This document shows positions 4,177 through 48,999 of a stretch of 64,000 bases of DNA, one piece after another. Location of the stretch: the NCBI GenBank assembly GCA_913045175.1, contig CAJWQG010000001.1, forward strand, positions 1 through 64,000, read 5' to 3'. Position numbers and translations under genes: made by a program. Numbering within the stretch: position 1 is the stretch's first letter; every line of letters begins with the position of its first letter. The notes beneath the pieces were generated by a model. The model was not told where the DNA came from. It searched no databases and was given only the letters and a program-made list of their open reading frames with translations. This DNA comes from an uncultured Gammaproteobacteria bacterium (lineage in GTDB: Bacteria; Pseudomonadota; Gammaproteobacteria; Pseudomonadales; Azotimanducaceae).

Positions 4177-5400
4177 TCAGACATCGGTATCGCCTTTGAG
4201 CAGCCTTTGTACGATCGTGCGATTGAGGATTTCGTTTGAGCCATCGGCAATGTTGATGATACGCAGCGATTGCCAGGCCTCAGACAGACCGAGTTCGTTA
4301 GTCAGGCCCATCGCACCATGAGCCTGTATGGCCCGATCGAGCGCCTTGATTCCTTGCTCGACTGAGTATTTCTTGGTCATGGAGAGTTCCTTGATCGCGG
4401 CTTCCCCCTGGTCCAGTAGCCCTGTCGCATTGAGACCCATCAGGTGTGCGGCATGAAGCTCAGTAGCTGATTCCGCCAATGGAAAGGTGACCCCCTGGTA
4501 TTCCGAAATGGGCTTGCCGAATGTTTCCCGGATTTTCGCGTACTCCAGGGCCATCTCGATCGCCCATCGCCCCAGGCCCACTGCCCGGGCCGAGTTGTAA
4601 ATGCGGCCCAGGGAGACGCCAAATAACGCGGCGGCGAAGCCGTTGTGTAGCTCGCCTACCAATTGCCAGGGCTCGACCCGAAGATTCTCAATGCGCAGCT
4701 CTGCTTCATCACCACCAATATGGCCAAACAGCTTCACCACGCGCTGAACTTCAAACCCCGGTGCATCGGTTGGGACCATGAATGCTGATATCGCACCTCT
4801 TTTTGTCGGGTCGGTTACCGCAAAGATAACGCAGTAATCCGCGATGGGCGCGTTCGAGATCCAGATCTTTCGACCATTGATAAGCCAGCCATCGCCATCT
4901 TCAACGGCTCTGGTTTTGATCATTGCGGCATCGGACCCGGCATCCGGTTCAGACAGGGCAAAGCACATGGATTTTTCGCCTGTCATCAGTGGTTCAAGAA
5001 ATTCCTCACGAGCGCGGTCCGTGACTTTCTCCAGTAAGCGGCTCGGGCCAAATGCCCAGTGCGCAAGCGCGTACAGCGTCATCCAGTTTTGCGCACCACA
5101 GGTATGGAACAATTCCTCCCAGCACGCGTAGTAGGCCTGCATCCCAAAGCCACTGCCACCGAGACTCTCGGGAACGCACATGTGATAGTAACCGGCGCTG
5201 GCCGAGGCCACTCGTATTTCCTTAATTAACTGACGTACCGGCGCAGAAAGGCGGCCGTCTTCCTCGAACTTGAGGCGTGGGTTTTCCAGCAGTTCGCGGT
5301 TCGCGTCGTGTCTGGGGATGACTTCGGCTTCTGCGAAAGCACGAATGCCGTCGCGGACCTGTTTAATATCTTCTGGTAATTCAAATGCTATCGCACTCAC
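4177..5400 (-). CDS. acyl-CoA dehydrogenase family protein
   Basis: 407 aa; motifs CFALSEPDAGSDAAMIKTRA and QAHGAMGLTNELGLSEAWQSLRIINIADGSNEI. Confidence 0.9.
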   Translation of the reverse strand: MSAIAFELPEDIKQVRDGIRAFAEAEVIPRHDANRELLENPRLKFEEDGRLSAPVRQLIKEIRVASASAGYYHMCVPESLGGSGFGMQAYYACWEELFHTCGAQNWMTLYALAHWAFGPSRLLEKVTDRAREEFLEPLMTGEKSMCFALSEPDAGSDAAMIKTRAVEDGDGWLINGRKIWISNAPIADYCVIFAVTDPTKRGAISAFMVPTDAPGFEVQRVVKLFGHIGGDEAELRIENLRVEPWQLVGELHNGFAAALFGVSLGRIYNSARAVGLGRWAIEMALEYAKIRETFGKPISEYQGVTFPLAESATELHAAHLMGLNATGLLDQGEAAIKELSMTKKYSVEQGIKALDRAIQAHGAMGLTNELGLSEAWQSLRIINIADGSNEILNRTIVQRLLKGDTDV

Positions 5401-12475: not shown

Positions 12476-12483
12476 GTGCGAGC

Positions 12484-12557
12484 GGGGGACAGTGTACTTA
12501 ATTCGCCTTATTGTTCGTCGACTGTCGCTGAATTCCGAATTGAGTACACTGTCCCCC
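12484..12557. repeat. palindromic repeat element A (copy 1)
   Basis: arms GGGGGACAGTGTACTTAATTCG (12484-12505) and CGAATTGAGTACACTGTCCCCC (12536-12557) are inverted with one mismatch; the same arm recurs at 46047-46122. Confidence 0.9.
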
Positions 12558-12566
12558 GATTAGAGA

Positions 12567-21267: not shown

Positions 21268-21984
21268 TTAGGGAAGCAAGGCCCCGCCGTCGACATCAAT
21301 AGTAACGCCTGTCATAAATGTATTGGTCATGCAGAGAAAAATCGCAGCGGCGATTTCCTCGGCTTCGCCTACTCGCCCTAACAGAACACCTTTACCCATA
21401 TTTGCCAATACGTCGGCCTTCTTATCACCGAGACCGTCGAACATGCCCGTGCTGATGATGCCTGGTGCGACCACGTTTACTCGTTTCGGTGCAATTTCCA
21501 GTGCCAGCGCACGGGTAAGACCCTCCACGGCACAGCCGGTGCAGGAGACCGAAGACATCCCCACATTGGCTTTTCGTGCGGGAATACCACTGACAAATGT
21601 GAGAGAACCCTTTTCTGTGAGGAAGGGCACGCCCAGTCTGGCGACATTGGTGTAACTCCAGAATTTTTCAAAGGCCCCGCGGAACTGTTCATCGGTCTGT
21701 TCCATGAAGGGCTTCATGGTTCGCTCGGCGCCGGTAGCGGCAGAAACGATATGATCTACTGAGCCAACGGATTCGAATAGTGCCTTCAGGCCCTCATGGT
21801 CATGGGTATCGAGTTGCTGGAAGTTGATATCGGGATGGTCGGCGCTGGCTGCGCTTATTTTGGACTCGGTGCGACTGACCGCCCAGACGTTGGCACCCGC
21901 CTCCCGGGCTTTGATCGCCGTGGCGAGTCCGATGCCTGATGTGCCGCCGGTGACTATAACGTTTTGATTATCAAAGGCTCCCAT
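21268..21984 (-). CDS. SDR family oxidoreductase
   Basis: VTGGTSGIGLATAIKAREAGANVWAVSRT and C-terminal FLCMTNTFMTGVTIDVDGG; likely start MGAFDNQNV at 21984. Confidence 0.88.
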   Translation of the reverse strand: MGAFDNQNVIVTGGTSGIGLATAIKAREAGANVWAVSRTESKISAASADHPDINFQQLDTHDHEGLKALFESVGSVDHIVSAATGAERTMKPFMEQTDEQFRGAFEKFWSYTNVARLGVPFLTEKGSLTFVSGIPARKANVGMSSVSCTGCAVEGLTRALALEIAPKRVNVVAPGIISTGMFDGLGDKKADVLANMGKGVLLGRVGEAEEIAAAIFLCMTNTFMTGVTIDVDGGALLP

Positions 21985-22132
21985 GGATGCCCTCCTCCAA
22001 TTTGAAAGGGGGCAAAATAGCATCTGTGGGGACCATTACCAAGGTGGAAATCGGTGCGCCCTCTGGACCCGGGCGCCGACACCTGTTGCAAGATGCCCCC
22101 AGTTAGCTGAATATTCCACCGGAGGAAAAAAT

Positions 22133-22969
22133 ATGTCTCTTTTAACTGAAACCCGCGACGACACCCTGCCGCCGGATGAGATCTCCGACGAGCTGGCACC
22201 AACCATCGCTGAACTTGGTCTGGAAGACACCTGTCGACAGCTGGTGGAAGAGGGCTATGCGGTTATCGAAAATGTATCTTCTCCGGAGTTCAACGAACGG
22301 CTTCGGGAAACTATTCTACGCCTGGTTAAACCTGTTCAGGTCACCGGCAAGACCGCGGGTATGAACATGCTCCTGTTAAAAGACCCGGTCTTTGGCGAAG
22401 CGATAACCAACCCGAAGCTGATGGCGATGGCTGAGTTTTCCGTAGGACGCGGTTATCTCATTTCACAGGTGACATCCACAGTCACCCCACAGGGCGAGGG
22501 ACATTATGGGCTGCATGCCGACCAGGTCTGGCTGCCGGCACCGTTTCCCGAGCACAACATGAACCTGACCTTTTGCTGGGTGACTGATGGTTATAGCGCG
22601 GAGCAGGGCGCCACGGTGATTGTTCCGGGTAGTCACAGGCTGCGGCGTCATCCCAACCATGCAGAAATGGAAGCCCGGGAAGGTGCCATCCCGATTGAGT
22701 GTCCACCGAACTCGATCGTTATGTGGGACGGCCGTGCGTGGCATAGTTCATCGCCGCGAATATCGCCCGGTGAACGTGTTGTGTGTCATATCTCCTGTTC
22801 AAGACTCGCCATGCGCGTCATCGAGAATTATTCTGCGCATGCGGATGACTTGATCGAACGTCATGGTCAACGCATGGCACAGCTGCTAGGGCGCAACGAT
22901 AGTCTCGATTCACCTTCTGGTTTTCGCTACGAGAACGCTATCGAAACTTTTAACAATTCGAGAATCTGA
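22133..22969 (+). CDS. phytanoyl-CoA dioxygenase family protein
   Basis: YGLHADQVWLPAPFP and RAWHSSSPRISPGERVV; GGAGG RBS just upstream of ATG 22133. Confidence 0.9.
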   Translation: MSLLTETRDDTLPPDEISDELAPTIAELGLEDTCRQLVEEGYAVIENVSSPEFNERLRETILRLVKPVQVTGKTAGMNMLLLKDPVFGEAITNPKLMAMAEFSVGRGYLISQVTSTVTPQGEGHYGLHADQVWLPAPFPEHNMNLTFCWVTDGYSAEQGATVIVPGSHRLRRHPNHAEMEAREGAIPIECPPNSIVMWDGRAWHSSSPRISPGERVVCHISCSRLAMRVIENYSAHADDLIERHGQRMAQLLGRNDSLDSPSGFRYENAIETFNNSRI

Positions 22970-22977
22970 TCGCCATG

Positions 22978-23064
22978 AAAAAAAGGGGTCAGGTTCATTT
23001 TCCACCATATTCTGTCTGAACGGCCAAGTTTTCAGAAGGAAAAATGAACCTGACCCCTTTTTTT
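22978..23064. repeat. palindromic repeat element B (copy 1)
   Basis: left arm AAAAAAAGGGGTCAGGTTCATTTTCC (22978-23003) and right arm GGAAAAATGAACCTGACCCCTTTTTTT (23038-23064); inverted. Confidence 0.9.
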
Positions 23065-24870
23065 CTACTTCTAGCACTTTACTGTGCGTCCGCAATTGCA
23101 GACGATGAAGGGCAGTGGCAACACGGTGTTTCGATTTTTGATGAGTTCAAGTACGGCGCAGACTTTGAACACTTTGACTATGCCAACCCCGATGCTCCAA
23201 AAGGCGGCACCCTAGTGCTCTCCACGCCACTCGATTTCACCAGCTTTACACCGTTTCTACCCGCCGGTGTGCCAGCTATGGGCGTGCTCAACCCTGGGAT
23301 GCTGTACGACGCACTTTTCGTGCGAGCAAATGATGAAGCCTATAGCATCTACGGCAATCTCGCGAAACGAGTAAAATTTACCGAAGATCTTAGCGAAGTA
23401 ATGGTAGAGCTCCACGCTGATGCCTACTGGCATGATGGCGAACCTATCACCGCTGAAGACGTGAAGTTTACTTTCGATCATGTACTTAACCATTCGACCG
23501 CGGGTATACGTGCTGCCCTGTCGATCATAGAGTCGGTAGAAACTTTCGGTGAGCGAGAGGTCTTGTTCCGGTTTAGACGGATCGGTGAGTTGAGCAAGAA
23601 CTCATTCTCGAGTCCAGGGATGTATGTGAGCATCCTTCCGGAACACTACTGGCGTTCGCGGGACCTTTCCAAAACTACCCTTGAGCCACCCCTCGGCAGC
23701 GGGCCTTACCGTATATCCGATTTCGAACAGGGGCAGTTCCTGCAATATGAACGCGTGCCGGATTACTGGGGCCGTGATCTCCCGGTCCACCGTGGGCGGC
23801 ATAACTTTGAGTACATTCGCTACGAGCTTTATCGCGATGCGACCATCGCAAGGGAAGCATTGCGCAAGGGACTAGTAGATTATCGCGTTGAATCTGACCC
23901 CCACTTGTGGCGAACCGGTTATAACGTTCCGGTGCGTGAGAAAGGCTGGCTGGTCATGCGCCAGAACAATTCGAAGGTGTCATCAGGCTTTCAAAGTGCA
24001 TTGATCTTCAACACGCGACGTGAAAAGTTTACCGATGTCCGCGTGCGGGAGGCCCTGTCGTCGGTATTTGATTTTGAGTTTACCAATCGTGCCATCTACG
24101 CCGGCTTTTACACCCGTGCCGACAGCTACTTTTCGGGTACTGAACTTGCGGCCAGGGGTCTGCCCAGTGAGGCCGAATTGGCACTACTGGCACCGTTTCG
24201 GGAACAGTTGCCGGAAAGGGTATTCACGCAGCAATTTGTATTACCCAAGGGCGAAGAAAACCGTGAAGACCTATTGCGAGCGAGAGAATTATTGGCGGAT
24301 GCCGGTTGGAAGATTCGTGACGGTATCCTGGTCGATGCTGCAGGGCGACCATTCGAGATCGAGTTCCTGACGTTGTCGGCTAACGATAAGCGAACGCTGT
24401 TGCCCTACATGGATCAGCTCCGGCGCCTGGGCATTACATCTAACATTCGCTTTGTGGAAGCGGCACAGTATGTGAGCCGGTTGCGTGAGTTTAACTATGA
24501 TGCGCTGCTGCGAAGCATGCCCTATGGATTCCCCCCCGGCGTGATTATGCGGGCGTACTTGAGTTCAACGACCGCGAACGCCCCGGGCGGCGCGAACCTG
24601 GCGGGCATTAGCAGCCCGGTTGTCGATGCGCTGATCAGTGAAGTGCTGGGCGCAAGGGGCAGTCGCGAGCTTATCGCTGCCGGCCGGGCGCTCGACCGAA
24701 CCTTGCTGTGGGGCTATTACCTCATTCCGATCATCGGCCGCCCCGAGCCGCGGGTAGTGCACTGGGACAAGTTTGGTCAACCGGGTATCGAGGCCGAGTA
24801 CATCACCGACTTTCCTCATTCCTGGTGGTGGGATGAGAAGCGAGCCACCTGGATAAGTCTGAAAAACTGA
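23044..24870 (+). CDS. extracellular solute-binding protein, YejA-like (orphan paralogue)
   Basis: 608 aa; MNLTPFFLLLALYCASAIADDEGQWQHGVSIFDEFKYGADFEHFDYANPDAPKGG resembles the 2204-4141 protein; no adjacent permeases. Confidence 0.88.
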   Translation: MNLTPFFLLLALYCASAIADDEGQWQHGVSIFDEFKYGADFEHFDYANPDAPKGGTLVLSTPLDFTSFTPFLPAGVPAMGVLNPGMLYDALFVRANDEAYSIYGNLAKRVKFTEDLSEVMVELHADAYWHDGEPITAEDVKFTFDHVLNHSTAGIRAALSIIESVETFGEREVLFRFRRIGELSKNSFSSPGMYVSILPEHYWRSRDLSKTTLEPPLGSGPYRISDFEQGQFLQYERVPDYWGRDLPVHRGRHNFEYIRYELYRDATIAREALRKGLVDYRVESDPHLWRTGYNVPVREKGWLVMRQNNSKVSSGFQSALIFNTRREKFTDVRVREALSSVFDFEFTNRAIYAGFYTRADSYFSGTELAARGLPSEAELALLAPFREQLPERVFTQQFVLPKGEENREDLLRARELLADAGWKIRDGILVDAAGRPFEIEFLTLSANDKRTLLPYMDQLRRLGITSNIRFVEAAQYVSRLREFNYDALLRSMPYGFPPGVIMRAYLSSTTANAPGGANLAGISSPVVDALISEVLGARGSRELIAAGRALDRTLLWGYYLIPIIGRPEPRVVHWDKFGQPGIEAEYITDFPHSWWWDEKRATWISLKN

Positions 24871-24878
24871 GTAAAAAG

Positions 24879-24940
24879 GATAAAAAGGGGTCAGGTCTAT
24901 TTTCCCACCATGATAAAAATGGACCTGACCCCTTTTTATC
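24879..24940. repeat. palindromic repeat element B (copy 2), possible bidirectional terminator
   Basis: GATAAAAAGGGGTCAGGTCTATTTT (24879-24903) inverted with AAAAATGGACCTGACCCCTTTTTATC (24915-24940), with T-runs at both 3' ends. Confidence 0.9.
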
Positions 24941-26183
24941 AGCAAAGCGCCTCGTAGGTCATCTTCTCGAATTGGACCGCGGTTGGGAACATGTAGCCGA
25001 ACACTTGGGTGAAGAACAGGCCGAAAAGTTCCTCTTTGGGATCAACGAAAAACCAGGTACCGGCCGCTCCGGCCCAACCGAAGGTGCCAGCGGAACCCGG
25101 CGTAAAAGCGGGCCCGCCAGACTTGCGCACGAACATGCCGAAGCCAAAGCCGTAGTTAGGGGCAAACGAGTCTATGCAACGGTCACCAAGATGGTTCGTT
25201 CGCATCAGTTCAACGGTCTTGCGCCCGAGAATGCGTACCCCGTCCAGTTCTCCGCCGTTAGCGAGCATTTGGGCGAAACGCGCAAAGTCGTGTGGAGAGC
25301 AAACCAGTCCACCATTCGACCCATTACCAGACATCACACGTCTATCCCCGCGACCCGCCTTTTCCGAGGTCTCTGGTCGATCGCGGATCGCAAGTTTTTC
25401 CTCCACAGGGTTCCATTGATGTTCAGTCACCAGGCGTGAGAGAGCTTCCTCGTTACAATAAAAGGAAGAGTCGTGCATACCGAGCGGGCCGAGAAGTTTT
25501 TCCTGGAACAGTGCATCCAGGCTCTTGTCGGACACGCGTGTCAGGAAGAGCGTCAGCACATCGAAATCATAGCCGTAATTCCATACCTCGCCGGGTTGTG
25601 AGTGCAGAGGATTTGCCGCGATCGCCACAACCCTATCATCGTAATCCAGTGTTGGATCTGTATCTCCCAGCGTTATTCCTGCGGCTTCCATGGTTGGCTG
25701 ATACACCACAGGCGTTCGACCCAATGATGGCAGGCCGGAGGTCATCGTCAGAAGATCGAAAATCGTGATCTCTCTACGCGCCGGTGTGGTTAGAGCGTAG
25801 TCGCCGCGAACGGTATCCTGTGGTGGTTTTATGGTGAAAACGCCCGGTTTGGCGAATTCCGGAATCCATTTTGAAATGGGCTCATCGAGCAGGAATGCGC
25901 CTTCTTCAAAAAGTGTCATCAGGACTGCGGCGGTCATAGGCTTGGTCTGCGAGTACAGCCGAAACAAACTATCAGCAGCGACAGGCGCCGGACGTTCCAC
26001 GTCGAGCTTGCCGGTGACGTGTGAGTGCACCACCTTGCCCTGACGTGCCACGAGCGTTACGGCACCGGGCAGCTTACCCGCATCGACTTCAGCGTCGATC
26101 ATGTTACTGATTCTATCTAGGCGGTCGGGTGCAAAGCCCAGTTCGCTGGGATCACCTGAAGGTAGTTCTTGCGTCTTTTTCAT
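24939..26183 (-). CDS. serine hydrolase, class C beta-lactamase/esterase-like
   Basis: SxxK motif SQTK in SLFRLYSQTKPMTAAVLMTLFEEG; beta-lactamase fold, 414 aa. Confidence 0.88.
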   Translation of the reverse strand: MKKTQELPSGDPSELGFAPDRLDRISNMIDAEVDAGKLPGAVTLVARQGKVVHSHVTGKLDVERPAPVAADSLFRLYSQTKPMTAAVLMTLFEEGAFLLDEPISKWIPEFAKPGVFTIKPPQDTVRGDYALTTPARREITIFDLLTMTSGLPSLGRTPVVYQPTMEAAGITLGDTDPTLDYDDRVVAIAANPLHSQPGEVWNYGYDFDVLTLFLTRVSDKSLDALFQEKLLGPLGMHDSSFYCNEEALSRLVTEHQWNPVEEKLAIRDRPETSEKAGRGDRRVMSGNGSNGGLVCSPHDFARFAQMLANGGELDGVRILGRKTVELMRTNHLGDRCIDSFAPNYGFGFGMFVRKSGGPAFTPGSAGTFGWAGAAGTWFFVDPKEELFGLFFTQVFGYMFPTAVQFEKMTYEALC

Positions 26184-26206
26184 CTTTACCAGCCTCCAGG
26201 GGCTCC

Positions 26207-46046: not shown

Positions 46047-46122
46047 GGGGGACAGTGTACCTAATTCCGAATATACGCGGCGTACTTATTTTGATTGAAA
46101 CGAATTAAGTACACTGTCCCCC
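46047..46122. repeat. palindromic repeat element A (copy 2)
   Basis: GGGGGACAGTGTACCTAATTCC (46047-46068) inverted with CGAATTAAGTACACTGTCCCCC (46101-46122). Confidence 0.9.
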
Positions 46123-48918: not shown

Positions 48919-48999
48919 CGTCATCCTGAGGGAAGCTAGGTAACTCAGGGATTAGGGCGAACTCACATCGAGAGATCCTTCGCTTCGCTCAGGATGATG
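48919..48999. repeat. intergenic inverted repeat CGTCATCCTGAG...CTCAGGATGATG
   Basis: 12-nt arms with one mismatch plus GAGATCCTTCGCTTCGCTCAGGATGA. Confidence 0.65.

Follow-up and report, generated by a model that had tools for sequence, protein, structure and literature searches.

The window, by which we mean the whole 64,000-nucleotide stretch of DNA analysed here, contains a gene for a YejA-like substrate-binding protein that lies between two copies of a palindromic repeat, repeat B. The gene product is a member of the SBP_bac_5 family (PF00496, E=7e-58) and its signal peptide can be read from the sequence. Copy 1 is an 89-bp inverted repeat (22977–23065) with two 25-nt arms that are 100% complementary and a 39-nt loop, while copy 2 (24879–24940) has two 25-nt arms that are 96% complementary and a 12-nt loop. 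The bracketing of the gene described in the original prediction holds. When up to 3 mismatches were allowed a 17-mer from the arm matched the window five times, against 0.31 matches expected from shuffles. The features are as follows, with the arms given as terminal inverted repeats (TIRs) and the strand given for genes.

22133–22969, + strand: upstream PhyH dioxygenase-like gene (PF05721), syntenic in the sister species G001, start set by comparison with G001
22977–23001: left arm (TIR) of copy 1, GAAAAAAAGGGGTCAGGTTCATTTT, 7 nt past the PhyH stop codon
23002–23040: loop of copy 1, including the Shine-Dalgarno-like AGAAGGA at 23034–23040
23041–23065: right arm (TIR) of copy 1, AAAATGAACCTGACCCCTTTTTTTC, which holds ATG 23044 and codes for MNLTPFF
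23044–24870, + strand: YejA-like (SBP_bac_5) substrate-binding protein gene, 608 aa, signal peptide MNLTPFFLLLALYCASA
24879–24903: left arm (TIR) of copy 2, 8 nt past the YejA-like stop codon
24916–24940: right arm (TIR) of copy 2, adjoining the stop codon of the convergent gene
24939–26183, − strand: convergent beta-lactamase-fold serine hydrolase gene (PF00144), absent at this position in G001

Two of these placements had been missed originally, namely that copy 1 follows the PhyH stop codon (22969) by 7 nt and that the 3′ end of copy 2 meets the stop codon of the convergent beta-lactamase-fold gene. The description of the YejA-like gene as an orphan is fair. The neighbours scanned within ~6 kb on either side encode PhyH, SDR, TetR, MFS, SnoaL and beta-lactamase-fold proteins, and no ABC permease or ATPase gene was found among them. 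The window genome holds at least 13 YejA-like matches, and a YejA-like paralogue outside the window (G000:C1:103002-104759) has two in-frame TAG codons. An imperfect inverted repeat of another kind (TCATCCTGAGGGAAGC.../...TCAGGATGA, 81%) is present at 48921–48997 of the window.

Repeat B and the transposase of its family

We compared the arms with three related genomes: the sister species (G001), another congener (G002) and a genome of the same family (G053). Arms of repeat B were found 5 times in the window genome, 0 times in G001, 57 times in G002 and 50 times in G053, and a reversed-pattern control gave 0. Four of the five arms in the window genome pair up as the two dimers, and the fifth stands alone on contig 13. 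In G053 arms at 4455 and 5252/5278 of one locus (C31, L085) bracket a single Y1_Tnp gene of 231 aa. Nucleotides 6–29 of copy 1 match the 5′ end of this transposon at 23/24 positions and GGAAAAATGAACCTGACCCCTTTT from the right arm matches its 3′ end, also at 23/24. The transposase reads NHVHLL, the HUH motif, and YIELNPVRA, with the catalytic tyrosine; it scores above the cut-off for PF01797 and just under it for NF047646 (74.3 vs 80 bits). The same arms lie around 53–57% identical transposases in Pseudoxanthomonas, Frateuria, Lysobacter and Rhodanobacter (L096, L125, L126, L133), flanking both sides at the Rhodanobacter lindaniclasticus locus (L096). According to Di Nocera et al. (2013, PMC3733652), the TIRs of TIRtrons have the motif GGGGWSAS in common and make up repeat families whose members occur singly, as dimers or in groups. 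All four window arms contain GGGGTCAG, which fits this motif; as a text string in the literature GGGGTCAG returned unrelated papers only. On these sequence matches repeat B is the TIRs of a TIRtron, the latter being a small element that encodes a RAYT-like transposase of the HUH/Y1 type. The window genome itself yielded no transposase flanked by arms, and its sole PF01797 gene (C58) is unflanked and 37% identical to that of G053.

In G053 the stop codon (TGA) of the transposase itself lies inside its 3′ arm (L085:4455-4470), so that overlap between arms and gene ends extends to the parent element. Both Frateuria flava (L126) and Lysobacter bugurensis (L125) have a pair of such TIRtrons, divergent and adjacent to each other. 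A second TIR-like family (GGGGGACAGTGTACYTAATT) that also fits GGGGWSAS occurs in the window at 12483–12558 and 46047–46122. It has 22 arms in the window genome, 1 in G001 and 10 in G002, and an arm resembling it lies near a Y1 transposase in another genome (G006, L063).

The congener G002 holds arm pairs that still enclose pieces of a transposase gene. In a 177-bp remnant (L148:1064-1240) the 5′ end is fused to broken C-terminal transposase codons between two arms, and in another (L147:1415-1536) only a C-terminal piece of the transposase is left between the arms. This suggests that the remnants are steps from a TIRtron to a TIR dimer by internal deletion. Since such internally deleted remnants exist between arms, we read the window copies as probable MITE-like TIR dimers. 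The remnants bear on how REP/REPIN-like repeats form.

Several known systems share features with repeat B. As in TIRtrons/TIRYT (PMC3733652), inverted arms flank an HUH/Y1 transposase and also occur alone, as dimers or grouped without it. In contrast to these, here an arm replaced the start codon of a host gene and supplies the first residues of its product, and the window genome is without an arm-flanked transposase. REPINs and GTAG REPs with RAYTs (PMC3116915, PMC2817692) likewise consist of inverted dimers with large hairpins and a related transposase family, and are intergenic, often directly past stop codons, whereas repeat B has few copies in the window genome. The predicted fold energy is 0 kcal/mol for a single arm and −29.4 and −23.2 kcal/mol for the whole dimers, and no GTAG/GTGG head was found beside any window arm. 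We therefore rejected membership among the REPINs or GTAG REPs, the single arm not being palindromic and the GTAG/GTGG tag being absent. Rickettsia palindromic elements (RPEs; via PMC3733652) are also short palindromic repeats that add residues to a working protein, sometimes at the N-terminus. However, RPEs have a CGTC tag and no known transposase, while the repeat here gives the start codon itself. The MITEs that arise from insertion sequences by internal deletion are non-coding and consist of two joined ends of an autonomous element, as here, where deletion intermediates are seen in G002, but the parent in this case is a Y1 tyrosine transposase element and not a DDE element.

The position of the elements was scored in G053 with a simple ORF caller (longest ORFs) and a null that ignores element length. 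On this measure 17 of 31 elements start or end within 15 nt of the 3′ end of a gene, compared with a fraction of 0.142 for intergenic positions drawn at random from the same loci (P about 1e-7). Published REPs are likewise found mainly downstream of genes (PMC3733652). Both window copies thus occupy ordinary positions for the family, as each lies directly after a stop codon. The G053 elements also cluster locally (P about 0.0003 with the transposase's own flanks left out), and two copies around one gene fit this clustering. In both G053 and G002 other genes stand between two copies, and they encode a TPR protein, a phytase-like protein, an ATP-grasp protein, an amidohydrolase and YdjM.

The start codon and the repeat-free site in a sister species

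The start codon ATG (23044–23046) of the YejA-like gene is part of copy 1, in its right arm. The frame is closed by a TGA at 23017, 27 nt upstream of the ATG, and downstream no further ATG, GTG or TTG was found until codon 58 (GTG 23215). Of the conventional starts, therefore, ATG 23044 alone preserves the signal peptide. The AGAAGGA of the copy 1 loop matches a Shine-Dalgarno site well. From this arrangement we infer that translation begins at ATG 23044.

The sister species carries an orthologue of the YejA-like protein with 90% amino acid identity, placed between the same PhyH and SnoaL-like neighbours and without repeats. The window is collinear with G001 at 21268–22977 (88%) and again at 23068–24861 (91%), and between these blocks G001 has 50 nt, with no repeat, in the place of copy 1. 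The orthologue starts at a native GTG and begins MRLITLWLLV... (MRLITLWLLVLYYSSAIADD), and the homologue in the congener G002 starts at an ATG and begins MRLNVLLLLV. Since both begin MRL, we take this to be the older state and MNLTPFF to be the arm-derived replacement. Compared with G001, copy 1 took the place of ~50 nt that included the start codon and about 7 codons. Native DNA was lost at copy 1 and not merely added to, unlike a clean IS200/IS605-type insertion. A loop made of surviving native DNA was ruled out, its similarity to the 50 nt of G001 being not above that of shuffles (P 0.77). At the level of sequence, copy 1 is present in the window and absent from G001, a presence/absence difference between species. 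Further downstream G001 has 37 nt where the window holds copy 2 and the beta-lactamase-fold gene (24862–26206), and the best G001 homologue of that gene is 60% identical and on another contig.

The claim that the start codon and first residues derive from the repeat was borne out by the native GTG start and the repeat-free locus of G001; these also indicate a true capture of a mobile-element arm as coding sequence. However, the suggestion that the gene was mobilised as a repeat-flanked unit was not, because the orthologue stands at the same locus without the repeat and the gene therefore predates it. Such a repeat-free orthologue was part of what the original prediction had named as evidence against itself.

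We consider it likely that a MITE-like dimer derived from a TIRtron captured the start codon of the YejA-like gene and that the gene itself was not mobilised. Repeat B would be a MITE-like dimer of TIRs whose parent carries its HUH/Y1 (RAYT-like) transposase between GGGGTCAGGTYYATTTT ends, and the dimers would settle, or persist, chiefly right downstream of stop codons. Copy 1 would have inserted 7 nt past the PhyH stop and replaced ~50 nt through the original start codon. Because the native gap between the PhyH and YejA-like genes is only ~40 nt, an 89-bp copy reaches the next gene. The outgoing strand of the arm, ..GGAAAAATGAACCTGACCCCTTTTTTT, would by chance have given a ribosome-binding-like sequence and an ATG. 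The exchange of MRLITLW for arm-derived MNLTPFF would have left a neutral, Phe-rich beginning to the signal peptide with the reading frame kept. In this account, the genomes compared show directly that the family has a cognate transposase elsewhere, that the site is empty in G001, that the N-terminus was replaced and that the G053 elements favour stop codons. A literature search for start-codon insertions of palindromic elements gave no match. With its empty site, the locus shows cleanly that a RAYT-type mini-element replaced the start codon of a host gene without breaking the frame: a known kind of element with one uncommon consequence.

Expression, selection and other readings of the locus

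In the predicted fold of the full 5′ leader (MFE −58.5 kcal/mol, z −7.6) the start codon is paired, and the three bases of ATG 23044 have unpaired probabilities of 0.17/0.00/0.00. This predicts that the copy 1 hairpin sequesters the start codon and lowers translation. A transcript beginning in the copy 1 loop is predicted to leave the start ~80% open. The native G001 start is likewise predicted to be paired, so folding does not tell how translation is affected on balance. Copy 2 is predicted to form a hairpin of 25 bp (−38.9 kcal/mol) with U-rich ends and a loop of 12 nt, which probably acts as a two-way transcription terminator between the convergent genes. An intrinsic terminator would normally have a shorter loop than the 39 nt of copy 1, and a terminator consensus scan limited to loops of 3–8 nt listed neither hairpin.

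We found dN/dS values of 0.23 for the YejA-like gene, 0.10 for PhyH and 0.08 for SDR, and the value of 0.23 indicates that the YejA-like gene is under purifying selection. Its lineage-specific residues number 19 in the window species and 19 in G001, and therefore give no sign of decay on the window lineage. The dS between the window species and G001 is 0.26–0.45. Beside this value the 0 mismatches among the 25 arm pairs of copy 1 suggest that, if the arms are neutral, the insertion is younger than the species split.

Copy 1 could have silenced the gene by terminating read-through from PhyH and burying the start, leaving a recent and still intact pseudogene. We regard this as unlikely. In its favour are the very stable predicted hairpin, in which the ATG is paired and CCCCTTTTTTT lies within codons 4–7, a signal-peptide start without any remaining positive charge and our finding no promoter-like site between PhyH and the YejA-like gene. 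However, the frame of 608 codons is intact, the window lineage has no excess of changes, the loop offers a usable Shine-Dalgarno match, and pairing is predicted for the native G001 start as well.

The hairpins could instead have been recruited by selection as regulators of translation or transcription, like the stop-codon-proximal REPs of E. coli. In E. coli, REPs less than 16 nt past a stop codon are reported to reduce translation (Liang et al. 2015, cited by PMC12306157), and copy 2, at 8 nt behind the YejA-like stop, falls inside that reported range. The arm pairing is also perfect or nearly so, but a young insertion would equally show perfect arms. Conservation has no comparator here, as the repeat is missing from G001 and we found no closer relative. 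Recruitment appears rather improbable to us.

A wider reading takes the arms as pre-adapted start sites (outgoing strand ..GGAAAAATGRACCTGACCCC..), so that insertion behind a stop codon would give the following gene a fresh start codon, an altered signal-peptide beginning and a built-in hairpin switch, recurrently rewiring translation initiation in operons. If true this would be a recurrent transposon route to new translation starts in operons; we think it very unlikely. Among 135 distinct arm occurrences in the fetched loci only 14 open frames reach 100 codons. We counted 94 distinct ATG-bearing arms, and the capture in the window is the only convincing case among these ~94. The arms were rejected as general suppliers of start codons: on close inspection two loci (L114 and L167) show evident starts further downstream, a third (L069) has a plausible one, and the remaining long arm ORFs look spurious. 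An SD-like sequence before the arm ATG was also rejected as a trait of the family, being present in only 18 of the 94. The start-codon capture in the window is thus best read as a rare accident, a by-product of the short intergenic gap. If accidental it is a curiosity, and the stop-codon preference and deletion intermediates are of more use.

We give little credence to a composite mobile cassette in which the two TIR dimers and the gene moved as a unit by a transposase acting in trans. The recurrence of bracketed genes in G053 and G002, the local clustering of elements beyond chance and the bracketed layout of the transposase gene itself would all suit such a cassette, but the bracketed genes elsewhere are unrelated, and stop-codon preference with local clustering is the simpler account. 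The two copies also differ in arms and loops, which argues against recent duplication of one end, and in G001 the gene occupies the same locus without them. The least probable reading is that the real start lies elsewhere and the arm merely looks coding, an annotation artefact of the kind suggested for many REPs at gene starts; such artefacts are common among published REP cases (PMC3733652) and two other long arm ORFs that we examined have better downstream starts, but here the in-frame stop at 23017 and the absence of any ATG, GTG or TTG before codon 58 leave a signal peptide that requires ATG 23044.
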